Virus record (IMG/VR): IMGVR_UViG_3300025011_000133 | Location: 1 to 32,986 of that record | Reading direction: 5' to 3' (one strand) | From: a virus | Length of the DNA stretch: 32,986 bases | Shown: one piece after another, positions 3,192 to 28,175 of the stretch | Layout of the letters: each line of letters starts with the position of its first letter | Numbering within the stretch: position 1 is the stretch's first letter | Translations under genes and position numbers: made by a program | Notes under the pieces: model-generated | Told to the model about the DNA's origin: nothing | Seen by the model: the letters and a program-made list of their open reading frames with translations, nothing else | The model's database searches: none

Positions 3192-3481
3192 CTATTGGGA
3201 ATGATATCTGTTGTATGATTTCTTCCTATTCTCATCTGTTATCGTTGCATACACTTGAGTGGATAATGGATCTGAATGTACAAGAAGGGATTGTGCATAA
3301 GACAAGGGAGCTCCGTTATTAAGGTCAGGGGTAGAAAATTTTTGGTGCTCAGGACTGGAGTGGTACTTGGTAAGTATGTCTGATATCAGGGTCTCAGCGT
3401 GTTAACTTCAATATTAGGGTAGCATTCTTGTATGGAATGTAGAATTTCTTCATTTAGGAATGTTATGCTGACTCTCTTCAT
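3192..3481 (-). pseudogene. Broken small ORF: ribbon-helix-helix-like start, recombinase-like end
   Basis: From ATG at 3481 a frame reads MKRVSITFLNEEILHSIQEC and on to a stop at 3386. The overlapping frame is open from 3401 to a TAG at 3192. Joined near 3400 by one indel they give about 96 residues. The strand-helix-helix pattern across the join (RVSITF, then NEEILHSIQ, then AETLISDILTKYH) resembles ribbon-helix-helix DNA-binding proteins. The last 50 residues instead recall the end of tyrosine recombinases: LNNGA, then HSDPLSTQVY with the His-to-Tyr spacing of 9 typical of that active site, then ITDENRKKSYN. No good ribosome binding site precedes the ATG and a terminator hairpin lies directly upstream. 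It is probably a remnant; a sequencing error in a live gene is possible. Confidence 0.45.
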
Positions 3482-3525
3482 ATAATAAAACACAACCCTT
3501 CTTTTTTATAGAAAAGAAGGGTTGT
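3482..3525 (-). terminator. Intrinsic terminator after the beta-helix fibre gene
   Basis: A perfect 14-bp stem (arms 3492-3505 and 3512-3525, 6-nt loop) is followed on the minus strand by TGTTTTATTATA. It lies about 115 bases past the fibre stop and ends the structural unit before the lysis genes. Confidence 0.8.
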
Positions 3526-3605
3526 TCAGAATATTTCTGAGTTCCCCCGTAAAGTTAGGGCATACTCGTCGAGAAGAAACTTATACCTAAAGAGTCTCTG
3601 GGTTC

Positions 3606-3646
3606 AATGATTTCAGAGAGTTGTTTCGCTTTTTCTGTCAACTACG
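3606..3646 (-). repeat. 41-bp direct repeat, copy A, at the 3' end of a fibre gene
   Basis: Positions 3606-3646 match 10535-10575 at 39 of 41 bases; the only differences are at 3614-3615. Each copy contains the TAG stop of its fibre gene plus the next 38 or so bases. After the TAG the fibre frame stays open to 3555 and encodes LTEKAKQLSEII and 16 further residues. This suggests the 3' scar of an exchangeable receptor-binding cassette, or a stop-codon readthrough tail. Confidence 0.9.
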
Positions 3647-5813
3647 CATTAAGTTCAACCAAATTGTTACCGTGGCTCCAAGGAGTTAAATTGATCTTGC
3701 CCGACAAATTACCTGTCGTTTTTGCTGTTATACTAACTACGTTAGTAATTCCATTCTGGTCGCAATACCCTGTGTTACCTATAAAAGTAACATCCATTCC
3801 TACGTCACCAGAACTCAAATCATCCGTAATACTCACAACTTTATTATTTACGGATCTGAACAGAGAATTTCTAGCTTCAAATTTTTGACCAGTTACATCG
3901 GCTCCAGCCCCAGAATGGCAAAGTAATGCACCATTAATTGTATGAGATACACCAACATCCGTATAGGCATACATTTCGCAATTATCTATTTTTATGGATT
4001 GATCTTGATGTAAACCAATGCCAACTGCTGCTGATGTATTAGATTTCATAAGACAATTAAAGAGTTCGACATCTCCTGCTCCTTCATAATCTAAATGAAC
4101 AGCATACGCGTATAAGTCTTGCAGAACAGGGTCTACTAAATCGTCATAAGTGTTAATAATAGATAACCCTTCAATTCTACCTATCCCTCTATAATCAAGG
4201 GTAGAGATCGGATATTGTGCAGTATCGTCCCTTATAATGCAGGATAGTTTATTTACGCCTATCAAAGAGATATACCTGCCAACAGGGACGAGGATTCTCT
4301 CATAGTACGTTCCAGGATAAATCTTAATAGTGACAGGGTTATTAACTGAATCGTTTGCGTTGGCTATCGCAGTAACAATCGAACTGAAATCCCCCCAACG
4401 CTTTGCTACCTCGATGAATCCCTTTGGGATAATGATATTAGCTTTTTTGACCAAATAACCGTCAGGTATTGCTACTGGCGGTACATAATCTATTTGCATA
4501 AAAACAAAAGCAGATAAATTGACCGTTAATGTATTAACCCTAATAAATACGGCACTAACAGGTGACGTAAGCAATCCCTTACTCGTAATCAACTGAGCCT
4601 GAGACAACCCACTAATGAATACCTTACTACTATTATAAAACGCAACTTGCTCATTAAAATTGATTGTATAAGGCGTTTCTGCCGTTATTGGGATATAGTC
4701 TGAAACGGTATATGAAGCGTTTGTCCCTAATGTTCCATCAGTGTATTTCGCAAATTTACCAGATGTTGCGGTACTTTTATTGAATAAATTGTGAATATCA
4801 TCCAAAATATTTACCACTTTACCCACGGTACCAGATAAGGTGGTAGCATTGACTAAAACGTCAAAATCAGATGTTTTAATCACATCTGGTTCTATAAAAA
4901 ACTTATCATAGGATACGTATGAGCTCTTTATGCTGCCTAGTTCTAACTGCTGAATTGCTAAATTTGCGGTTAAAGTATTAACCCTAACATATGCTGCCCC
5001 CACAGGAGTGGTAAATTTACCATCAGCAGCAATTAATGTGGCTTGGGATAAGCCACTAATAAATACCTTACTACTATCATAGAAAGGTAGAAGTTCGATA
5101 GATGATAAAATATAAGCTGTTTCGGCTGTTACAGGTATAAAGTCGGAAACTGAATAAGTTGCACTCGCTTGTAATACTCCTGTATCCGACCTTGCGAAAA
5201 AACTATCTGTTACATCATCTTCATTAAATAGGTTTACCCCAACCTTCATAAAGTCAGCCTTTATTCTAGTGACCGATCCGTCTGCTATTCCTGACCCCTG
5301 ATAAATGCCTCCCGATACCCAAGATGCACTATTCCAGTAGTACCACTCTCCATCTGTTGTAACAAGGTAGATGCCAGTGTCTCCAGTCGGTAAAGCAGTT
5401 TCCAGATCAATTAATGTTGCATATACGCCTTTAGGAGATCCACTTGCGACCGTAGCAATTTTGGTGTCAACGTAGTCCGTTGATGCTTTCAATGTTAACT
5501 CTAACGTATTCTCTGCCTTGAACGAAACAAGAGAATCCGAAACCCCCTTTAGGGTCTCAGTGGTTCTACCAATCCCGGCTAAATCTAACACACCACCCCT
5601 AACTTCATTAACCGCTTTAACTAAGCTAGACTTATCTACTGTATTTAGCTCTGCCACACTACCAACCTCTTTTTTAGAGGTCATTTTCTTTGGTCCACCA
5701 GGGGTACCAATGTATAGCTCCTCTTCAGCCACCACATAACCAGGTTCATAGGATCTTAATTTATCAACACTGGTTATTGAACCACTTGTTATCTGTATTA
5801 GATCTTTAGCCAT
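3642..5813 (-). CDS. Tail fibre / receptor-binding protein with beta-helix domain
   Basis: The product has 723 aa. Residues 1-50 form an attachment module with the EEELYIG motif, shared with the other fibre in this window. Residues 55-120 look like a helical stalk containing SFKAEN. Residues 193-296 and 342-440 are tandem copies of one domain, sharing the strings SSKVFISGLSQA and RVNTLT. From about 455 a right-handed parallel beta-helix is likely, with a pectin-lyase-like signature, KIYPGTYYERILVP (497-510), and repeated short strands. Such folds bind or cleave surface polysaccharide; I cannot point to catalytic residues. A GAGGAGG site precedes the ATG. The gene is last in the adsorption block, and the receptor-binding part seems richer in CG dinucleotides than the structural genes, consistent with horizontal exchange. 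Confidence 0.85.
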   Translation of the reverse strand: MAKDLIQITSGSITSVDKLRSYEPGYVVAEEELYIGTPGGPKKMTSKKEVGSVAELNTVDKSSLVKAVNEVRGGVLDLAGIGRTTETLKGVSDSLVSFKAENTLELTLKASTDYVDTKIATVASGSPKGVYATLIDLETALPTGDTGIYLVTTDGEWYYWNSASWVSGGIYQGSGIADGSVTRIKADFMKVGVNLFNEDDVTDSFFARSDTGVLQASATYSVSDFIPVTAETAYILSSIELLPFYDSSKVFISGLSQATLIAADGKFTTPVGAAYVRVNTLTANLAIQQLELGSIKSSYVSYDKFFIEPDVIKTSDFDVLVNATTLSGTVGKVVNILDDIHNLFNKSTATSGKFAKYTDGTLGTNASYTVSDYIPITAETPYTINFNEQVAFYNSSKVFISGLSQAQLITSKGLLTSPVSAVFIRVNTLTVNLSAFVFMQIDYVPPVAIPDGYLVKKANIIIPKGFIEVAKRWGDFSSIVTAIANANDSVNNPVTIKIYPGTYYERILVPVGRYISLIGVNKLSCIIRDDTAQYPISTLDYRGIGRIEGLSIINTYDDLVDPVLQDLYAYAVHLDYEGAGDVELFNCLMKSNTSAAVGIGLHQDQSIKIDNCEMYAYTDVGVSHTINGALLCHSGAGADVTGQKFEARNSLFRSVNNKVVSITDDLSSGDVGMDVTFIGNTGYCDQNGITNVVSITAKTTGNLSGKINLTPWSHGNNLVELNA

Positions 5814-5826
5814 GTTATTTCCTCCT

Positions 5827-6282
5827 CTATTCCACTATATCATCAAAATCTCCCCCGTTAATAGATTTACTTATTAACGGGTCGAACACATCATCAAAAC
5901 TCCCACCATTTAGACTATAGCTATCTTCCACATACACCACAGACATTTTGGTATTTACTGAGTAGTACCTAACCCTAACCACCTGACCTAACTCCAAAGG
6001 CTCAGTGACACTAAAACTTGTCCTTGAGGTTTCGTTAAATCCTTGATGTAAGTATTGTGGGACGTTATCAATGGATACCTCCAGAGTGTGGGTTTGGGGG
6101 GTGTATTCTCCGTTTTCTAGATTAAACACTGTTTGACCATCTGAAGCTATGAAAGTTTCCTCATGTATGACTGCCCCCACTTTTTGTAGTTCTTCATTGA
6201 CTGCGGTAGTATTTGAGGACAACTTGTCAAAAATAACCTCAAAAGTATCTAAATTCAGATTTAATGGTGTTAATTCAACCAT
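5827..6282 (-). CDS. Small beta-rich fibre or baseplate accessory protein
   Basis: The 151-aa product starts with a helical stretch (about 1-40). A beta-rich domain follows with the pattern FIASDGQTVFNL, then TLEVSIDNVPQY, then VVRVRYYSV, seen in small domains of phage tail-fibre and fibre-adaptor proteins. The C-terminus carries two copies of a Gly-Gly motif, SLNGGSFDD and SINGGDFDD, like those in the gpI-like baseplate protein at 12218-13483. AGGAGG lies 9 bases before the ATG. Its place directly before the fibre gene suggests it connects or decorates that fibre. I do not recognise a named family. Confidence 0.6.
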   Translation of the reverse strand: MVELTPLNLNLDTFEVIFDKLSSNTTAVNEELQKVGAVIHEETFIASDGQTVFNLENGEYTPQTHTLEVSIDNVPQYLHQGFNETSRTSFSVTEPLELGQVVRVRYYSVNTKMSVVYVEDSYSLNGGSFDDVFDPLISKSINGGDFDDIVE

Positions 6283-6293
6283 AGGTAAACCTC

Positions 6294-6494
6294 CTATTGA
6301 TTACTAATCAATGAGTTAATCATTTCTTCAAGAAGTAAGTATTTGGCCTGTAGATCTGTGTTAACAGCTTTAAGCTCCTCATACCCAGCTACCAAATCTT
6401 CTGTACTTTCCCTCAATTCCCTGAACTCCTTTTCCGCTTCCGTTCTTTTATACATAACAGCACCGTGCTCTTTATCTATTACCTTAGTAGGCAT
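6294..6494 (-). CDS. Small coiled-coil protein, function unknown
   Basis: The 66-aa product is almost wholly charged and helical (around YKRTEAEKEFRELRESTEDL), with heptad spacing that suggests a coiled coil. The ATG at 6494 is preferred because AAGGAGGT lies 8 bases upstream; the longer frame to 6551 would begin inside the preceding terminator. It sits between the DUF4815-type gene and the small beta-rich gene. A tail-fibre assembly or stalk role is possible, but only position supports it. Confidence 0.55.
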   Translation of the reverse strand: MPTKVIDKEHGAVMYKRTEAEKEFRELRESTEDLVAGYEELKAVNTDLQAKYLLLEEMINSLISNQ

Positions 6495-6521
6495 AAAGGT
6501 ATACCTCCTTAAATAAAAATA

Positions 6522-6568
6522 GGTCATTAAATAAAATACGGGGATAATCATAGTATTAATTATCCCCG
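6522..6568 (-). terminator. Intrinsic terminator after the DUF4815-type gene
   Basis: A perfect 10-bp stem (arms 6539-6548 and 6559-6568, CGGGGATAAT) with a 10-nt loop is followed on the minus strand by ATTTTATTTAATGACC (6537-6522). The same 16 bases follow the terminator at 22935-22985. It begins 8 bases past the upstream stop. Confidence 0.8.
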
Positions 6569-6576
6569 CAGGTGTC

Positions 6577-9500
6577 TTAGTATTTCAAGATGTTCATCAA
6601 TTTCTTAGCTCTAGGTCGAGCTAGTGGATTTGTGGTAGTCAGAACTATTTTCACTCTGAATTCTTTGGCATTGATATCCACTTTATTCCACTCATACCTG
6701 GAAAATTCCTCATCCACAGGTATTATGGAAGGCGTTAGCAACTCATTCCACACCTCAGATACATCAGTATTCATGTAGTACACATGGCACGCAGTACCTG
6801 AGGGCAGTGTAAGATCCAGCAACACCTTTATTTTTGTGAATGACTCATCCATAACAATATTTTTTGAGACATACGTGCAAGAGGTTTTATCAGTAAACCC
6901 CACCACATTTACTGCATCCACTGCTAACATAGGAGAAGTTGAGTCGGCTACATTAAAAACAGCTTTTAATGATATGCTGTTGGCGATAGAGGATAATTCC
7001 CTATCTACATATGTTTCTATAGGTAACCATGAACTGGAGTTTACCTTATAGTACCATTCTATGCCAGCATTTCTGTAATCTAAAACTTGAGCAGCAAGTA
7101 AGAGCCTATTCAAGGCAAGCCCTGTTACATCATTAAATACAACTTGTCCATTACTAGTAAAATTAGCCTTATACACATCAAATTTTAAGTCTTGGGTCTG
7201 GTGTGCGGTCCAAGTGAGAGCATTAGAGGAGCTAAATAACACTCCCGTGGAATAAGGTTGGCTAGTGACATAATTATTTGTTATAAGATCTCTGGCCCCC
7301 AGTGTAGCGGTGAATACACTATAAACATTGGAATCTGATAGCACACATATACAGTATTGTTCGTTGGATCTGCAATACACTGGCTGATTCAGGTCTACCA
7401 GTGTGGCTGTCTGACCCTTATCAGACACAGTAATGGCACTAGAAGGCACAGTAGTTTCAGCATAGCAAGTGGTACCTGGATAACCATTTACCATATTTCT
7501 GATCTGCACTACTATGGCCTTACTTGGATCTTTTGTCGCAAAATACAACCCAATCCTGGTTATAATAGTGTCAGACTCAAATGAAAAGGATTGAGCCAAT
7601 GGGTCTATGGGCACCATAACTATAGTAGTGGTAAGAACTGTATTAGTAATAATCTGTTTCCTGCCCTGTGCTCGGTATATGGCGGTTCCATGTCCAGTGG
7701 CTGAAGATAATTTAACCTCAACACTACCACAGGGGGTATTGGCGGGTACTGTAAATTGAGCAGTGAACGTTCCTTGCGTACCGGCCCTTACCGTACCTGC
7801 TTGAGTACCAGCAACGGTAGGTGCTAATGGGGTTAATGGAACCACGGTGTCGTTAAAACGACACACTATATTGTCAACCGAAGGGGTAAAATTTTGCCCT
7901 GTAACTTTAACGACTTTTTGTCTCATATACATGATAGCTTCATCTAAAGTAATGGATGAACTGGTACTAACAACGGAAGTAGAAGACCCCCACCCTAAGG
8001 ATGCTCCCCCATCAACTAGGCCAAGGGCTATCCATTTTAGTCTCTCTTCTTCTGCCCAACTTTCTCCTCTGTGATACCACCATCTCCTAAGTGTGGTTGT
8101 TTTTGTCTCGGTTTTATTTAGAAGAATCTTGGTGGAGTCTATCCAGTTATCTACGGCAGGTATAACTGAAATTAGGCTCATGGGATTGTACACGGCATAA
8201 GGATTGACTAAAAAGCTCTCTGTAGAAAAAGTTTGGCTCAAAGCCTTTAAGTGTGTAAATGGTGCCATCATAATTCTACCTATTGAAGAAACCTGGGTTT
8301 CGTAGGTCTGAGTATTGGGTGTCATTTCACTTATGCCAATCGTAAATGGAAGGGTTAATTCTTCATTATCTAAGTCTATAGTTGCATCATACTCTGGATG
8401 GGTTAAATCAGATTTAGTGACACCTATAAACCCATCTGTAAATATGCCCTTAAGATCAGTAGCTGCCTCTCCATCTGCCGCCTCTTTGTCTAAATCCGTC
8501 ATGGCTTGATTGTACTCTATGTCATCAACCCTTTTGGACAGTCTAAACAGGTCAGATTGGGATAGCCTCACTGTGTTGAAGTTACTTATGTCCATTTTTC
8601 CTGAATTTGGATACACTAGAACCGTACCAATTATGAGTTTAGTGGTGTCTTGATTTAGGGGGGTTTCGGATAGTCTGACAATCTCTGGTTTACCCTCAAG
8701 GACATTGGCAACTCCGTCCTTGTCTAAGGTCACTAAGTCTTTCCTAGCCAGATAAAAGTTATAACTAGCGTCAACGGTAGTCCCGGTTACTGGACGATCA
8801 CCGTCGAGGAAATGGAGATAATGGTTATATTCAAACAGCTCTAACTCTATATCTGTTCCTAAAACCATGATTTTGTTATATTTATAAGTTACGGTATACG
8901 TGGTACCGATACTGGGATCTATGCCTGGGAGGGACCAGTCCACCCCATCATTAGTTAGTTGATAGTCAACCCCATTAACATATGTGGTTCCACCAGCTAC
9001 GACTGAAACAATATTAACTACAGGAGTTTTAGATAAGTAGTCGATACCACCCGACACGTTACCCCTAGTTAAGATGTCTACCTTTTGCACAGTTGCTTTT
9101 ACCTGAGTGATCTCCTTAACAGGCTGATTGTTTAATAGGTATCTATCAATACCTGTGATATATCCTTTGGGCTCATTTAAAACTTGTCTGGTAGTTTGGC
9201 TATAGTTTATAGAAACTGTGGAGGCAGCAGGTTTTATCATTTCAAACCCCTGAATGTACGCCTTACCCTCTGTGAGAGATATGAGGAGTTTGCCATCTCT
9301 AACCTCGTTTCTATCTCTTAGGTCTAATCCATTTATTTTGTAGTTACCATTTTCATCATAAGTCCTGCGTGCCAGCACATCAGTAATAACATCAATTTCT
9401 GGTGATATATCTGACTTTAAAAGAACCCCACCTTCCAACCTAAAAATGGTTGTAAATTCAGGGTTATTTCTAGCAAATTGGACAATCTCCTTTGACCGAT

Positions 9501-9909
9501 GTGCGCCAGTTTGACCAAAATTCTCGTATCCCATGGCGGGATCTCTAAGTGTGGGGTCTTCTATTTCCGTTACTATAGTTGTGATCAGTTTAACTCCAAT
9601 GACTTCTGACCCCACCCCGTCGATAGTAAGAGTAACACCATCCACCAATCTAACTAAGCCATCCATGTATATCCTGCCAGATGAGATGACGGCGTCATTA
9701 CCACTAACCGTCAAAACACACCCATCCACTACTGACCCATTTTTCAGTATAGTGTCGCCAAGTCTACCTATATGGTCGTATAGGGTAGTTTGGATTTGTG
9801 TAAATTCCCTGGCTTGCTCTGCTGAGCCTGGTACAGCCAATATAGTGGTATACCCTTTAGAAGGGTCATAATCATCATAGTAAGGAGCAGTTATGATGGG
9901 GTTTGGCAT
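6577..9909 (-). CDS. Large DUF4815-type tail/baseplate protein
   Basis: The 1110-aa product begins MPNPIITAPYYDDYDPSKGY and continues with a block around EFTQIQTTLYDHIGRLGDTI. A beta-rich region follows (around GSVVDGCVLTVSGNDAVISS). This N-terminal pattern matches the DUF4815 family of large structural proteins in Gram-positive myoviruses. The middle and C-terminal parts look beta-rich, with a hydrophilic helical stretch around residues 455-490. Proteins of this kind sit at the baseplate periphery and are thought to hold fibres. The ATG at 9909 is chosen because GGAGG lies 8 bases upstream; the GTG at 9918 overlaps that site. It is followed by a terminator. Confidence 0.8.
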   Translation of the reverse strand: MPNPIITAPYYDDYDPSKGYTTILAVPGSAEQAREFTQIQTTLYDHIGRLGDTILKNGSVVDGCVLTVSGNDAVISSGRIYMDGLVRLVDGVTLTIDGVGSEVIGVKLITTIVTEIEDPTLRDPAMGYENFGQTGAHRSKEIVQFARNNPEFTTIFRLEGGVLLKSDISPEIDVITDVLARRTYDENGNYKINGLDLRDRNEVRDGKLLISLTEGKAYIQGFEMIKPAASTVSINYSQTTRQVLNEPKGYITGIDRYLLNNQPVKEITQVKATVQKVDILTRGNVSGGIDYLSKTPVVNIVSVVAGGTTYVNGVDYQLTNDGVDWSLPGIDPSIGTTYTVTYKYNKIMVLGTDIELELFEYNHYLHFLDGDRPVTGTTVDASYNFYLARKDLVTLDKDGVANVLEGKPEIVRLSETPLNQDTTKLIIGTVLVYPNSGKMDISNFNTVRLSQSDLFRLSKRVDDIEYNQAMTDLDKEAADGEAATDLKGIFTDGFIGVTKSDLTHPEYDATIDLDNEELTLPFTIGISEMTPNTQTYETQVSSIGRIMMAPFTHLKALSQTFSTESFLVNPYAVYNPMSLISVIPAVDNWIDSTKILLNKTETKTTTLRRWWYHRGESWAEEERLKWIALGLVDGGASLGWGSSTSVVSTSSSITLDEAIMYMRQKVVKVTGQNFTPSVDNIVCRFNDTVVPLTPLAPTVAGTQAGTVRAGTQGTFTAQFTVPANTPCGSVEVKLSSATGHGTAIYRAQGRKQIITNTVLTTTIVMVPIDPLAQSFSFESDTIITRIGLYFATKDPSKAIVVQIRNMVNGYPGTTCYAETTVPSSAITVSDKGQTATLVDLNQPVYCRSNEQYCICVLSDSNVYSVFTATLGARDLITNNYVTSQPYSTGVLFSSSNALTWTAHQTQDLKFDVYKANFTSNGQVVFNDVTGLALNRLLLAAQVLDYRNAGIEWYYKVNSSSWLPIETYVDRELSSIANSISLKAVFNVADSTSPMLAVDAVNVVGFTDKTSCTYVSKNIVMDESFTKIKVLLDLTLPSGTACHVYYMNTDVSEVWNELLTPSIIPVDEEFSRYEWNKVDINAKEFRVKIVLTTTNPLARPRAKKLMNILKY

Positions 9910-9938
9910 GCAGTACACCTCCGTTTATTTTAATGTGT

Positions 9939-10487
9939 CTAGAATTCTACGATTAAAACTAATTGTTCTCTCTGATCAGGATCCCTATACACTGGCTTTC
10001 TATTGTCAATAACTTCAATAATGCCAGGGTCTGTGACCTCACCAGGTAACAGGACATATTGCCCTATCGGAACACTAACTTGCTTAACCAACCTAGTGTA
10101 GGCAGCAATCTGTCTATAAACTATGTCTGTTGGTAATTCTGAATAGGACAAAAAGGTAGAAATGTACACCCATCTAGCACCTTGAGAAAGTGCATCAGCA
10201 TAGGAAACTATCTTCCATTTAGTATTACGATAGGTCAACTCACCAGAAGGGTCAGGCCTTACTAAAAATATGGATTCTACCTTTTTGTATGCTATGGGAT
10301 CTATGAGCTCATCTGTGTTGGTGGGGGTGGGTGGATAGGATTCTCCTATAACCGTGGTGGTGGGGGTGGCTGTGGTTCTATCTGCCTCCGTCCAGGCAGT
10401 AGGCTTACCTATGCCAAAATACACATCAGGTTTGTTATAAAAGTCCATAGCCCTAGATACGTGGCCTTTTAGATGGGTTACTGACAT
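9939..10487 (-). CDS. Baseplate wedge protein, T4 gp8-like
   Basis: The 182-aa product has a block YNKPDVYFGIGKPTAWT near the N-terminus, a Pro/Thr-rich linker (about 40-60), then IAYKKVESIFLVRPD and GARWVYISTFLSYSELP. Proteins with this pattern, beside DUF4815 genes in large myoviruses, are usually annotated as gp8-like baseplate wedge or structural proteins. GAGGAGG lies 7 bases before the ATG. It is placed between the SGNH fibre and the DUF4815-type protein, consistent with a baseplate-to-fibre connection. The gp8 link is from remembered family patterns and is moderate. Confidence 0.6.
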   Translation of the reverse strand: MSVTHLKGHVSRAMDFYNKPDVYFGIGKPTAWTEADRTTATPTTTVIGESYPPTPTNTDELIDPIAYKKVESIFLVRPDPSGELTYRNTKWKIVSYADALSQGARWVYISTFLSYSELPTDIVYRQIAAYTRLVKQVSVPIGQYVLLPGEVTDPGIIEVIDNRKPVYRDPDQREQLVLIVEF

Positions 10488-10534
10488 ATTGTTACCTCCT
10501 CTTCTTATTGGGGTGTTTCCTAGTTTTCTCCCCT

Positions 10535-10575
10535 AATGATTTTGGAGAGTTGTTTCGCTTTTTCTGTCAACTACG
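10535..10575 (-). repeat. 41-bp direct repeat, copy B, at the 3' end of a fibre gene
   Basis: This is the partner of the copy at 3606-3646 (39 of 41 identical). It contains the TAG stop of the SGNH fibre gene. The frame stays open after the TAG and encodes LTEKAKQLSKIIRGEN before a second TAG at 10520-10522. Confidence 0.9.
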
Positions 10576-12205
10576 AACTAGCTATAATCTTAAACGTCCG
10601 TAGTATAGCCTTTAACTCATTTACCTCCGTTTCTAATTCACCCAATGTTGCACCACTGGTGTTAGGGTTTGCCGCACCAGTAACCCCATTCGCAAGTGTG
10701 TGAAAAGCCGTAAAAGCGTTGCCACTTATGTCAAACGTCCTAAATGCTATCTCCGGAGTCTCCCCATACCCCACATTCAATACCAAGGTAACGCCGTCAG
10801 CCTGTTTAAAAGTAAACACAGCACCGTCAATCAGAAAGCCTGTCGTTGCCCTATACATAGATACGTCAGCAGGATATCTATTATAGTTATCCGTAATTTC
10901 TCTATGCTCCACGCTATTAGGCACGTTAAAAATCTGGGGGAAGACCTCCCATTCATTCCAGCTATCCGTTAAATTATTGGATGTTCTAAAAGCTAATTCA
11001 GATTTTCCTGCGTTATAAGGTGTATTAAACTGATAAGCTGCACCGTCAACCTGCTTAACTGTTTTAAGTAAACCGTCATAAGGTACTGAACCTTGCGCCC
11101 TATTTAACGTAATTCCGTTATTAAAAGTCGAGGGTAATTCCGTGCCATCCAGTATGACCGTACTAGCAGGATAATTAATAAAGCCATACCATCTTAACGC
11201 TTCTGGGATGATAACTGGAGTTAACAATGATGTTATCCAGACATTTCCAATATTTAACGGATGAATATGCCGACCGTCTGCATAAGGATCATCTTGCCAT
11301 ACTACATTCGTTGAATCTAATAAATAATTGTAGGTGTCCACGAAACAACAAAAATAATCTCTACACGCCCTTTTTATCACTGGGGTAATTGCATCGAACC
11401 AAGTCGCGTCCCTGCCATTAGGACTATCATTCATTGAGTTTGGCATCATTAACACAATACTCATCTGTTGAACCGTTTTACTTGCCCGTATAGTGGCAAG
11501 TCCAGTTCTTAGTTTTGTTTCGAACGCGTCCACTTTTGCTTGTGTAAATGGCAGACCACCTGAGTCATTTGGTCCCCATTGAACAAAATAAGCATCTGGA
11601 TTTTCGGCCATATCCTCAGTAATATAAGAATCTAACCATGTTTGAACAGACATTCCACTATGACCTTTATTCAAGCAGGTCGCATTGTGAACACCATAAA
11701 GGGTTAATATATCCCTAGATGCTGTGGACAGTATCCATTTTGGGTCTGTTATAGCATCCCCTTCAATAGTGCTAGGGCCTGAAAATGATAGTGTAACTGC
11801 TTGTTTTAACCTTAACTTTTCTTGGTAAGCAACTAGGTACTCCCTGCCGAAAATATACTTAGTATGTTTCACATTATCTGCCTTGAACGAAGCAAAGTCC
11901 TCCTGATTTGTTTTAAGGACTACCTTTGCTACTTCTGCCTTTTCTGCACTGGTATAATCATTAGTAGATAGTCCTTTACCCTCTACCTTATCAACCTTTA
12001 GTAATAATCCCTCCTCGGTATCAGAGGAAAGACTTTCAATCATATTCCTAACAGTCTGGGTAGCTTTTCTGGGTTCCACCCCAACCCCCTTACCTATATA
12101 TAACTCCTCTTCATCTGTGATGTAAACTGGCTCGTTCTCAGCAGGAGTGCCTAGATTAACCTTTAAACCATACCTCAGTTGTATTAGATCTCTTCCGTCT
12201 GCCAT
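10571..12205 (-). CDS. Tail fibre with SGNH/GDSL hydrolase domain
   Basis: The product has 544 aa. Residues 1-48 are the attachment module (EEELYIG at 33-39), shared with the beta-helix fibre. Residues 50-115 are stalk-like and contain SFKADN. Residues about 135-335 form an SGNH-hydrolase-like domain: block I is GPST with Ser145 in place of GDS, block II is Gly181 in KGHSGMSV, block III is GPND (211-214) and block V is DGRH (Asp310, His313). The likely activity is de-acylation of a cell-surface polymer such as teichoic acid or capsule. Residues about 345-510 contain repeated carbohydrate-binding-like units, and 520-540 look like a short trimerising coiled coil. GGAGGAG precedes the ATG. Ser145 as nucleophile is inferred from spacing. 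Confidence 0.85.
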   Translation of the reverse strand: MADGRDLIQLRYGLKVNLGTPAENEPVYITDEEELYIGKGVGVEPRKATQTVRNMIESLSSDTEEGLLLKVDKVEGKGLSTNDYTSAEKAEVAKVVLKTNQEDFASFKADNVKHTKYIFGREYLVAYQEKLRLKQAVTLSFSGPSTIEGDAITDPKWILSTASRDILTLYGVHNATCLNKGHSGMSVQTWLDSYITEDMAENPDAYFVQWGPNDSGGLPFTQAKVDAFETKLRTGLATIRASKTVQQMSIVLMMPNSMNDSPNGRDATWFDAITPVIKRACRDYFCCFVDTYNYLLDSTNVVWQDDPYADGRHIHPLNIGNVWITSLLTPVIIPEALRWYGFINYPASTVILDGTELPSTFNNGITLNRAQGSVPYDGLLKTVKQVDGAAYQFNTPYNAGKSELAFRTSNNLTDSWNEWEVFPQIFNVPNSVEHREITDNYNRYPADVSMYRATTGFLIDGAVFTFKQADGVTLVLNVGYGETPEIAFRTFDISGNAFTAFHTLANGVTGAANPNTSGATLGELETEVNELKAILRTFKIIASS

Positions 12206-16460: not shown

Positions 16461-17510
16461 CTAAGCACCATCAATTGTGTGAACTCTTCCAGATGCCTTT
16501 ATTATAATATCCCCATTCTCATCAAATCTTATGAAACTACCTGTATTATGATTTATGCTGATTTCCCCGGATGAGGATATAAGGTAGCTACTGTCTCCCT
16601 TAGAAGTATGTCTGATTACTGAAATAGAACCGTCTATGTCTATTATACTTTCTGAGTAATCCGCTCCCAATCCATGGGTGTTAGAGTCGATTTGCCTGCG
16701 TGATATTAGCTTTCCTTCTGGAGATATCTCGTGATAGGATAGGGTACCATCATTGTTATCTCTGGTTATGCGTGGCATTCCTGTCTTACCAATAAAGAGT
16801 TTGGTACAGGTAGAAACTGCATCATCAAAATTAGACCTGTGGCAAAACAGTATATTCAGGGGAAAGGTGCTAGGTTCGTCCCTCCCCTCTCGTACCTTTC
16901 CTATGAGTTGATCCAACTCAGACAAATCCTTGTGATCGTACCCGTTGTGACTATCGGTTATAACATCATATGGATCATATCCCATCTTAAAAAAAGTCTT
17001 AGAGGAGTGAGAGTGCTCTACCCCTCCATCCCCGTCCACTTTATCGTAGGACTGACAAGGAAACACTTTTAAATATTTGAGAGCCTCTGCCTTATCTTGT
17101 GGGTTATCCTGATTTAATGGATAAATGGTAGTAAGGATATTCTTGAAAGAGTCTTCAGTATCTGGCAAAACCCCCAGGATAATAGGTTTAGTTCTAGCTG
17201 CATCTAGAAAAGCTAAAAGTACTAACTGTCCTTCCATTATAGGTTCCGTTGTACCCCATGAAGTCATAGTTTTTACGCTAAATCCTCCACTAGAGGATAG
17301 TATTTTTGGGGAATACTTGCCTTCTAGAGAGGTGGGACAACTAAATACATCACTCGTGTTTACTATCTGCACATCTGCTGTGCAATGTTTATGGTGGACG
17401 TTAAGTATTTTGGCTATAGCCATATACCCCTGCATTTTACTACCGGGTTTATAGGAATCCTCAGCTCTGCCAAGATGAGGCTGAGTTACTATTTTAGGTT
17501 CTTCTACCAT
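16461..17510 (-). CDS. Baseplate spike / gp5-gpV-like protein
   Basis: The product has 349 aa. Residues about 28-125 fit the OB-fold of gp5/gpV-like spikes (GYMAIAKILNVHHKHCTADV, then VLLAFLDAARTKPIILGVL). The last 80 residues carry repeated beta-strand units (SISVIRHTSKGDSSYLISS, GEISIN, FDENGDIIIKASG) typical of the triple-stranded needle. It pierces the cell envelope at the tail tip. No lysozyme domain is present; the wall-degrading activity is in the neighbouring hub protein. AGGAGG lies 5 bases before the ATG, which is 9 bases after the hub stop. Confidence 0.8.
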   Translation of the reverse strand: MVEEPKIVTQPHLGRAEDSYKPGSKMQGYMAIAKILNVHHKHCTADVQIVNTSDVFSCPTSLEGKYSPKILSSSGGFSVKTMTSWGTTEPIMEGQLVLLAFLDAARTKPIILGVLPDTEDSFKNILTTIYPLNQDNPQDKAEALKYLKVFPCQSYDKVDGDGGVEHSHSSKTFFKMGYDPYDVITDSHNGYDHKDLSELDQLIGKVREGRDEPSTFPLNILFCHRSNFDDAVSTCTKLFIGKTGMPRITRDNNDGTLSYHEISPEGKLISRRQIDSNTHGLGADYSESIIDIDGSISVIRHTSKGDSSYLISSSGEISINHNTGSFIRFDENGDIIIKASGRVHTIDGA

Positions 17511-17519
17511 ATTGACCTC

Positions 17520-19604
17520 CTATACGATAAACACTCTAACTGGTCTCCTACCAAAATCCAATGCCCTGGACTCATTTTCCGCAGTAGGTATCTTAGGGTC
17601 ACCGAGGAATATGTCAATTCTGGCCCCTTTCATATTTATGGAGCTATCTAGCTTCCCAGTGTCTTCTGCTATATATGTTCCGTTAACACTGGGGTATTCT
17701 GAACACTCCACTCTGACAGTTGACCCTTTAGGTATCACACTAAAATCCACTGCTATAGTTCTACCTTCTATGGGCCAGGTTTGACTAGCAGTTTGATTAC
17801 CTGTTGCTATATACGCGGTGGCAATCATTAACATTGTGTTTTGTCCTGGGGTGTATTCAAATACATCCCTAGCCTCAGTAAAGTGGCTATCAAACCACCC
17901 ACCTGTGAATCGGTGTATGCTAACTCCCACCCCTGAGTTGTTGTCTAAAACCATGTCGTTACCTACGTACATGCCCACATGCTGATAAGGATTAGACTTA
18001 GCACTAGTATTTGTTTTCTCACCAGCAAATATCAGATTTCCTGGTTTAAGGTCTGCCTTGCTGACTTTATAACCTTGCTTTGCCTGTCCGTAGGTGTCTC
18101 TTGCAAGGCTTATACCAGCTGACTGTTTAAACACATATTGCATAAAGGAAGAGCAGTCCCATGTCAAAGTTTCGGGACTATTTCCTCCATACACGTAGGT
18201 CACCCTACCTATAAAGGTTTTAGCATATTCCACAACACTACTAGCACTCCCAGTAGTGGTAGGAATTTTATCTCCAGTAACCGGATCTACAACCACAGGA
18301 TCTTTCAAAGTTGCCATCCAAGGTACGCCACTGAATGGGGTGCTTTTTCCATAAGGAGGTGTAAATCTATCCTTAGCTGGGCAACCCCTAGTGAGTCCTA
18401 TCACTGTCAACCAAGAACCAAAATTGATAAAATCATGAGACACAGATTTTATATAGTATTCAATGGCCGTACCATCCTCAATGGATTGATAGATCAGTTT
18501 GGTGCCAATCTTGTAACCGTTGCCCCCTTTCACTAACAAAGTACCATTAAACATGGAATTGTTTTTTATATTCCAGTTAAATAAATCTTCTTGGAACTTC
18601 TTCACTATAATGGTAACTCCAGGTCTGTCCTCCACAGTCTGATAGGCCGCGTATAAACTCTCAACATGTAATCTCCGGGTACCATATTTTTTAGAATATG
18701 GCTCATACCATATGGGCATTAATCCAAATGTGTTAAATGGATTAGAAGAAGTTCCGCCTATTTTCATACCTACTGAGTACACCGTGTATGTCTCCACATC
18801 ACTTCTACCTATCTCATCCAATACCACATCCTCATCAGTGACGGTGACAGAATCAAGAGACTTCCAGCTACCTTCACTGAAAGGAGTTGGCCTCAGATAC
18901 AAAGTGGGCTTATCATCCACCCCGATCTCCCAGAATAGCTCATGAAATGGAGGATCGGACACCTCTACCATAAATGCCCACATACTTTTCTGCCAGTTTA
19001 AGAGGGCAAGCCCATTCATCATTGTTACTCCATCTATACTAGAGGTGTTTTTTGATATTTTGTCAAATAAGTTACCATTAGAGAATTCATAGTTAGCATT
19101 TGGTTTAGCTATCTTTTCCCAAACAAGGTTTATAAGTTCACTAGGAGATAAACCAGATAGAGTAGACCCAAGTGAGAGTGATAATGACCCAAGATAACTC
19201 AGGTCCTCCACTTCAGGCATTTGACCTAGCTGAAACTGTATAAAGGCTTTACTAACTCCCCTACCTGTTATAGTTATTATCCTCTGTGGCTTATTATCCT
19301 GTATTACCACTTTCTTACGCACATCATCTACTAATCCCATGAACACTAATTTTCTAGACTCAGGAGGCCTCCACATTTCTATGGTTACGAGGTCATTAGA
19401 CTCCACCCACAAATGCCAAGGTTTTTTTCTAGATAGAAGTATAGAAAAAATGGGGCTATCCGCCCCCATATCCCGCTCTGTGTGAATGCTCAGAATGTCA
19501 TTGTCAATAGAAGATCTGGGGTCGGTAGTGGTTCTAAGAACAAGATTTTGCGTATCTGTGTATATGGTGACTATAGATTGTGGTTTATACCTCTTAGCCT
19601 GCAC
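17520..19604 (-). CDS. Baseplate hub with NlpC/P60 and 3D cell-wall-degrading domains
   Basis: The product has 694 aa. Residues about 1-410 resemble gp27/XkdQ-like hub proteins (RIITITGRGVSKAF near 108-121 and repeated beta barrels). Residues 453-585 are an NlpC/P60 peptidase: VYGGNSPETLTWDCSSFMQY with Cys484 as nucleophile and HVGMYVG with His542. Residues 593-694 are a 3D (DDD) domain: TAYIATG near the start, the Asp pair AEDTG (646-650) and RIDIFLGD (662-669), like MltA/YocH-type muralytic enzymes. It probably opens peptidoglycan during DNA injection by cutting both peptide and glycan bonds. The start is GTG at 19604, with AAGGGGTGAG upstream. It lies between tape measure and spike, the usual hub position. 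Confidence 0.9.
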   Translation of the reverse strand: MQAKRYKPQSIVTIYTDTQNLVLRTTTDPRSSIDNDILSIHTERDMGADSPIFSILLSRKKPWHLWVESNDLVTIEMWRPPESRKLVFMGLVDDVRKKVVIQDNKPQRIITITGRGVSKAFIQFQLGQMPEVEDLSYLGSLSLSLGSTLSGLSPSELINLVWEKIAKPNANYEFSNGNLFDKISKNTSSIDGVTMMNGLALLNWQKSMWAFMVEVSDPPFHELFWEIGVDDKPTLYLRPTPFSEGSWKSLDSVTVTDEDVVLDEIGRSDVETYTVYSVGMKIGGTSSNPFNTFGLMPIWYEPYSKKYGTRRLHVESLYAAYQTVEDRPGVTIIVKKFQEDLFNWNIKNNSMFNGTLLVKGGNGYKIGTKLIYQSIEDGTAIEYYIKSVSHDFINFGSWLTVIGLTRGCPAKDRFTPPYGKSTPFSGVPWMATLKDPVVVDPVTGDKIPTTTGSASSVVEYAKTFIGRVTYVYGGNSPETLTWDCSSFMQYVFKQSAGISLARDTYGQAKQGYKVSKADLKPGNLIFAGEKTNTSAKSNPYQHVGMYVGNDMVLDNNSGVGVSIHRFTGGWFDSHFTEARDVFEYTPGQNTMLMIATAYIATGNQTASQTWPIEGRTIAVDFSVIPKGSTVRVECSEYPSVNGTYIAEDTGKLDSSINMKGARIDIFLGDPKIPTAENESRALDFGRRPVRVFIV

Positions 19605-27836: not shown

Positions 27837-28175
27837 CTATCTTTTAGTCTTGATGGAAGCGTGGGCAACAAGCTTCGCTTTTACCTGCTCTGTAACTTGT
27901 TTTGCTGTTGTAGGTTCTGTAGCAGTGAGGGTGACAGGTTCTACAACAGGTTCTACAACAGGTTCTACAACAGGTTCTACAACAGGTTCTACAACAGGTT
28001 CTACAACAGGTTCTACAACAGGTTCTACAACAGGTGTGAAGTTAGGCAATTTAATAACACCCTTATAAATCTCTTCATCGGTAATTTCACCCACGCCATT
28101 TTCATCAAAACTTATTGATCCACATGAAAATGTTACTTCTTTACCAGCAAATCCAATGTTTAGTACTTTAGACAA
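27837..28175 (-). CDS. Small capsid-linked protein with VVEP tandem repeats
   Basis: The product has 112 aa. Residues 1-48 form a small domain (VLNIGFAGKEVTFSCGSISF, then EIYKGVIKLPNF). Eight identical VVEP tetrapeptides follow, then a Thr/Ala-rich basic tail (ending KTKR). The Pro-rich run should be an extended, negatively charged rod. Directly after the major capsid gene, such a protein may be a capsid fibre or decoration protein, or a connector linker; this is inference. The start is TTG at 28175, with AAGGGGG 6 bases upstream. A terminator-like hairpin precedes it, so it is probably made in lower amount than the capsid protein. Confidence 0.65.
   Translation of the reverse strand: MSKVLNIGFAGKEVTFSCGSISFDENGVGEITDEEIYKGVIKLPNFTPVVEPVVEPVVEPVVEPVVEPVVEPVVEPVVEPVTLTATEPTTAKQVTEQVKAKLVAHASIKTKR
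27937..28032 (-). repeat. Perfect 12-bp tandem repeat, eight units, coding VVEP
   Basis: The unit ggttctacaaca (plus strand) occurs eight times without a single mismatch, inside the small capsid-linked gene and in frame. Perfect identity at third codon positions points to recent expansion by slippage or recombination. Copy-number change would lengthen or shorten the protein by four residues per unit without breaking the frame. Confidence 0.97.

Follow-up and report, generated by a model that had tools for sequence, protein, structure and literature searches.

Phage host range is decided by the exchange of receptor-binding bodies, and the DNA borders at which such exchange takes place are rarely visible. 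Members of the Ackermannviridae carry several receptor-binding genes per genome, the tail spike genes tsp1-4, with homologous 5′ ends and differing C-terminal receptor-binding parts, and recombination in the laboratory has been described between tsp4 and an added tsp5 within one genome (PMC11414711). Domain mosaicism of receptor-binding proteins, in which a common N-terminus is joined to non-homologous C-terminal domains, pectin-lyase-like domains being prominent, involves exchange across distant phages and lifestyles (PMC10684548), and the fibre modules used by Alteromonas phages in host recognition have been transferred horizontally across distant phage groups (PMC10579305). Here we describe a 33-kb window, the complete IMG/VR record IMGVR_UViG_3300025011_000133 (32,986 nucleotides), which holds the structural genes of an SPO1-like (Herelleviridae-type) myovirus of virulent type on its minus strand. 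Two of its genes, the beta-helix fibre (3642-5813) and the SGNH fibre (10571-12205), carry two different bodies between similar borders, and we favour, with a probability of about two in three, the explanation that both are chimeras with imported bodies, exchanged at these shared borders.

The kind of process is already known from the three studies above, and the window is an ordinary example of phages swapping host-recognition parts, with a neat two-site signature. It differs from each of them in detail. The Ackermannviridae genes share long 5′ modules (XD and TD), whereas the window has a 5′ patch of about 23 bp and a 41-bp 3′ repeat. The mosaicism study compares proteins between phages and is agnostic on process, whereas the window combines two sites, shared DNA borders and a compositional signature that has been kept. 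In Alteromonas phages whole fibre-chaperone modules are transferred, whereas here only C-terminal bodies are concerned, and no fibre chaperone was seen with them. No direct precedent for short 3′ borders at fibre genes turned up in the literature searched.

The borders emerge when the two fibre genes, 3′ flanks included, are aligned locally without gaps; 200 codon-shuffled pairs served as a control (mean score 11.6, maximum 15). The top alignment, CGTAGTTGACAGAAAAAGCGAAACAACTCTC(TG/CA)AAATCATT, scores 35, the junction TTG(T/C)TTCGTTCAAGGCAGA(G/T)AAT scores 17, a patch coding for EEELYIG scores 14 and a fourth alignment, AGATCTAATACA, scores 12. Because the shuffle maximum is 15, the 41-bp repeat is far above chance, the junction just above it and the EEELYIG patch inside the shuffle range. 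The shared elements, with positions counted on the plus strand, are as follows:

3606-3646, minus strand: 41-bp 3′ border repeat, copy 1, starting with cgTAG (the stop of the beta-helix fibre), the remainder non-coding; 39/41 identical to copy 2.
10535-10575, minus strand: 41-bp 3′ border repeat, copy 2, starting with cgTAG (the stop of the SGNH fibre); 39/41 identical to copy 1.
5508-5530, minus strand: 5′ junction in the beta-helix fibre, coding for (V)SFKAEN; 21/23 identical to the other copy, with the same rare codons.
11873-11895, minus strand: 5′ junction in the SGNH fibre, coding for (A)SFKADN, in a predicted helix (residues 101-115) just ahead of the SGNH fold; 21/23 identical to the other copy, with the same rare codons.

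These repeats, the junction and their coordinates agree with an earlier note made on this DNA, which had also proposed a shared EEELYIG attachment module; the latter is a true homology at the protein level (Mtd_N type, PF18454), whereas its DNA patch does not stand out from the shuffles. The further claim that everything that differs lies between the two borders does not hold, as the N-terminal modules have in common only LIQ, EEELYIG and the SFKA(D/E)N linker and are strongly different outside these three patches. In both fibre genes the 41-bp element starts two bases ahead of the TAG, which makes it a 3′ border, and all of it beyond the stop is non-coding; its 20-base core, with up to 3 mismatches allowed, occurs just twice in the window (0.00 expected). 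The junction is in frame and uses identical codons in both genes, including the rare TCG (2.1% of native Ser codons), a coincidence with P of about 0.011 given the same amino acids and native codon usage. The exchanged part is thus flanked by homologous DNA on both sides, both stretches being short. Among 120 loci compared, unrelated C-termini sharing a 3′-end repeat occur only in the window, and in the sole other pair of genes with a 3′ repeat (L025) the C-termini are homologous. Read-through of the in-frame TAG, with LTEKAKQLS(E/K)II as its product, was considered separately and rejected, as it gives no family match of weight, open stretches of 28 and 16 codons are nothing unusual and neighbouring genes also end in TAG as an ordinary stop.

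On either side of the junction the two proteins have different affinities and, measured by the observed-to-expected ratio of CpG (CpG o/e) and by the synonymous use of NCG codons, different compositions:

5508-5813, minus strand: attachment module with EEELYIG at the N-terminus of the beta-helix fibre, with native-like CpG (o/e 0.41), similar to a gene of Streptococcus phage vB_SagM-GXN1 (GXN1; L005:11006-11404).
3642-5507, minus strand: beta-helix receptor-binding body with relatives in Streptococcus prophages and foreign composition (CpG o/e 0.86; NCG 25/160 vs 111/2059 native, p=6e-6).
11873-12205, minus strand: attachment module at the N-terminus of the SGNH fibre, matching Mtd_N (PF18454) at E=1.4e-4, which narrowly misses the gathering threshold, with native-like CpG (o/e 0.30).
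10571-11872, minus strand: SGNH-hydrolase-fold receptor-binding body, of foreign composition in its 3′ three quarters (CpG o/e 0.86; NCG 24/114, p=4e-8).

The GXN1 gene, which lies at the corresponding site, is itself Mtd_N. Single-protein seed searches recovered no close relatives of either fibre; alignment queries did recover relatives. Of 16 viral loci encoding relatives of the SGNH body, 13 show similarity from residue 112-120 onwards, adjoining SFKADN (106-111). The closest relative (L095; 57% over residues 117-424) belongs to a siphovirus-type contig with a lysozyme-like gene and has another N-terminus, and phage records concur, with homology starting at 116-118 in PPWS2 and in Caulobacter and Lactococcus phages. 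For the beta-helix body, the best PHROG matches begin at residue 107, the Streptococcus prophage Javan569 matches convincingly from about residue 104, and the pneumococcal prophage IPP23 is aligned through the last residue before the stop (NNLVELNA/NNLEYFNA), which is where the 41-bp border starts. That bodies are always inherited with their flanking genes is contradicted by these relatives, whose bodies lie behind other N-termini in other phages. The beta-helix fibre also contains an internal direct repeat of 126 bp (71%; 4515-4640 and 4959-5084), which corresponds to two related domains, both matching a single domain in fibres of Staphylococcus and Streptococcus phages.

The other body has an SGNH fold with the catalytic Ser and His blocks present. 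It belongs to the SGNH/GDSL family (PF13472, E=9e-9), its structural matches are acetyl-xylan and acetyl-mannan esterases (Foldseek E of about 1e-8 to the former), and S145, N213 and H315 are invariant, the GDS motif reading GPS with D replaced by P144. The AlphaFold model reaches a pLDDT of mostly 70-89 over residues 120-260; its N-terminus and residues 423-544 are poor, and therefore only the body fold was used. The linker is modelled as a helix (101-115) directly before the SGNH fold, at low confidence.

Outside the fibre region the window is depleted in CpG (o/e 0.41), as are SPO1, GXN1, L007, L008 and phi18 (0.36-0.42), L003 being less depleted (0.51); the depletion is not universal among relatives (SBSphiC 1.01, LysYB1 0.81). 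Both bodies, at 0.86, are comparable to temperate Streptococcus phages (0.85 and 0.97). Synonymous NCG use follows the same pattern, with 0.054 in native genes, 0.156 in the beta-helix body, 0.211 in the SGNH body and 0.145 in Streptococcus prophage fibres. A blind CpG segmentation that ignores gene positions, with score parameters taken from the bodies and 500 nulls, placed its two highest segments of the window in the fibre genes:

10556-11527, no strand: highest CpG-rich segment, score 13.9 (maximum of 500 nulls 10.9); edges within 2 log units at 10308-10691 and 11407-11734.
3548-5613, no strand: second-highest CpG-rich segment, score 12.4 (maximum of 500 nulls 10.9); edges within 2 log units at 3383-3717 and 5471-5736.

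A fixed 1.9-fold ratio leaves the ranking unchanged (12.5 and 9.8, both above the 95% null of 7.7). The repeat borders fall inside three of the four edges, including both 3′ edges. Composition, homology breakpoints and repeats mostly coincide in the borders that they indicate, at two sites of this genome, and it is well supported that foreign receptor-binding bodies sit on native attachment modules. The contrast between a depleted, virulent-type lineage and undepleted temperate donors makes CpG a simple blind finder of imported fibre bodies in such phages. In L008, another SPO1-like phage, the strongest CpG-rich segment lies at the C-terminus of a fibre gene (L008:18261-19703) and ends about 110 bp beyond its stop. 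This C-terminus is likely a second import. Other phages may therefore also have acquired fibre C-termini in this way, whereas the repeated border was observed in the window alone.

It is a reasonable inference that bodies are exchanged by recombination at the shared borders and that transfer has also taken place from one site to the other. Each fibre is a chimera that has retained an Mtd_N-type N-terminal attachment module ending in the helical SFKA(D/E)N linker; its C-terminal body, with an SGNH/GDSL esterase fold in one gene and a beta-helix in the other, was in all likelihood taken over from another phage population. The donors were probably temperate phages of Gram-positive hosts. The bodies finish at the stop codon, where the shared 41-bp border starts, and the borders may have served as matching stretches for recombination during co-infection or with prophages. 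One 3′ border could then have been copied to the second site, or a common pool could have supplied it along with each of the two imports.

Several observations weigh against this explanation. A junction of 19-23 bp is short for RecA-type recombination. No second phage carrying the 5′ junction or the 3′ repeat was found in IMG/VR, the species genomes, the phage records or the relatives' loci examined. The C-terminal match of IPP23 belongs to a weak alignment (24% identity overall), a natural edge of the SGNH domain would likewise put homology starts near residue 116, and L095 is itself NCG-poor (0.043). Finally, the fourth compositional edge, on the 5′ side in the SGNH gene (11407-11734), misses the junction by about 140-490 bp and lies inside the gene, where the CpG-rich part of the body sets in only after some 350 bp, and the SGNH gene is therefore mosaic at another place too; residues 113-226 have a synonymous NCG use of only 0.033, which accordingly marks a second, internal border. 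The reading proposed by the earlier note is thus upheld in part. That the bodies behave as foreign, exchangeable cassettes is supported by relatives that start right after the junction behind other N-termini, by the IPP23 body running to the stop and by the CpG and NCG differences; homologous recombination with the borders as crossover sites, and swaps between the two sites, stay suppositions, and in the SGNH gene the 5′ compositional border lies apart from the junction.

Of the alternatives, the one that survives best takes the 41-bp element to be a functional element of the 3′ untranslated region (a hairpin, an mRNA end or a translational element), kept alike by selection or copied once, and no recombination border at all. 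Its position fits, as nothing but its start at the stop codon is coding, and both mismatches fall in what could be one arm of a hairpin, the pairing arm being located in the flanks, which differ (TCTCTG..CAGAGA vs TCTCC..GGAGA). Shuffled flanks, however, give stems of this size in 11% of cases for copy 1 (6 bp) and in 21% for copy 2 (5 bp), and the hairpin covariation is not significant. Compared with shuffles, folding is stronger in the 3′ region of copy 1 (z=-3.2), mostly via the terminator described below, and no stronger in that of copy 2 (z=-0.9). An Rfam search gave no match at gathering, with weak, chance-level matches below the threshold, and there are no copies elsewhere: the exact repeat core (22-mer) does not occur in IMG/VR or in 85,000 species genomes, and blastn found no 41-bp core in phage records. 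We regard a functional element as an unlikely explanation.

Less likely still is an ancient duplication of a whole fibre gene, after which the bodies diverged and the 3′ end was homogenised by gene conversion, with no import. The N-termini do share LIQ, EEELYIG and SFKA(D/E)N, with matching frame and comparable spacing, and these modules may indeed derive from such an event. For the bodies it is contradicted: their folds are unrelated, they have separate relatives in different phages and their composition is unlike that of the phage.

The region beyond copy 1, in which two elements sit between the repeat and the next gene, bears on a third alternative:

3201-3392, minus strand: damaged C-terminal end of a tyrosine recombinase of XerC/D-like type, which has lost the HxxR box and retains the catalytic Tyr; 41% to Enterococcus XerC across 64 aa.
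3492-3525, no strand: near-perfect inverted repeat, a likely transcription terminator of the fibre operon.

A site-specific recombinase might have moved the cassettes, with the 41-bp repeat as a remnant attachment site and the fragment as the remains of the enzyme, which lies about 210 bp past copy 1 on the same strand. We consider this highly improbable. The repeat does contain short inverted arms (AGTTG..CAACT); these are just 5 bp long around a 15-nt centre, unlike usual core sites, and inspection of the sequence revealed no core-site structure. The dead fragment is all that the window shows of such an enzyme, with nothing similar seen beside copy 2; its region is native-like in CpG (0.30) and outside the CpG-rich segment, and its named relatives are of XerC/XerD type, one of them in a housekeeping hslV neighbourhood. 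An artefact of metagenome assembly around the repeat, conceivable for a 33-kb IMG/VR contig, is scarcely credible, because a misjoin at one repeat cannot yield two ordered copies with conserved baseplate synteny, and body composition and homology borders agree independently.

Import of bodies at shared borders, our preferred explanation, can be set in its genomic neighbourhood, where the genes are arranged as in an SPO1-like myovirus (baseplate, fibre, BW3TFN, DUF4815, fibre, holin, UvsW-like helicase) and the synteny of DUF4815 and BW3TFN is conserved as in SPO1 and GXN1:

6577-9918, minus strand: DUF4815 virion protein, a relative of SPO1 gp16.2, used as phylogenetic anchor.
9939-10487, minus strand: BW3TFN (PF25691), a component of the baseplate wedge 3 tail fibre network.

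The DUF4815 protein is 59% identical to that of L003, a 142-kb IMG/VR phage and the closest relative, 47.5% to that of GXN1 and about 41% to SPO1 gp16.2. Gram-positive hosts are suggested by the relatives of this protein and by those of the bodies in both fibres. Megablast of the fibre region against phage records gave no match.

Downstream of its DUF4815 gene, L003 carries an intact diversity-generating retroelement (L003:15545-18502), with a variable repeat (VR, 16781-16895) and a template repeat (TR, 17104-17218) matching at 89/115 positions, template A at 25/26 differences, and a reverse transcriptase (RT, 17405-18502; RVT_1, E=2e-17). The likeness lies in the region, used in both phages to vary host recognition, and the Mtd_N domain of the SGNH fibre is named after the target of the Bordetella phage retroelement. 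The means differ: the retroelement works by targeted mutagenesis of A in a C-type-lectin-like target with TR and RT, and in the window, as far as the contig sequence goes, the proteins examined near the fibres include no RT and the repeats no VR/TR pair. As an open-ended alternative to this retroelement, the lineage could keep a two-site cassette system, in which pool donors share the 5′ linker codons and the 41-bp 3′ border and any pool body is insertable at either site, a tentative idea that we hold to be doubtful. That the region holds imported cassettes or a retroelement in relatives would permit a direct comparison of two ways to change host recognition. L003 also has a GIY-YIG/NUMOD3 homing-endonuclease-like gene (L003:9039-9839, with a weak SegE match) inserted between its BW3TFN and DUF4815 genes. 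Elsewhere in the window, a 12-bp unit (ACAGGTTCTACA) is repeated in tandem at 27934-28041, within a small open reading frame (27837-28175).

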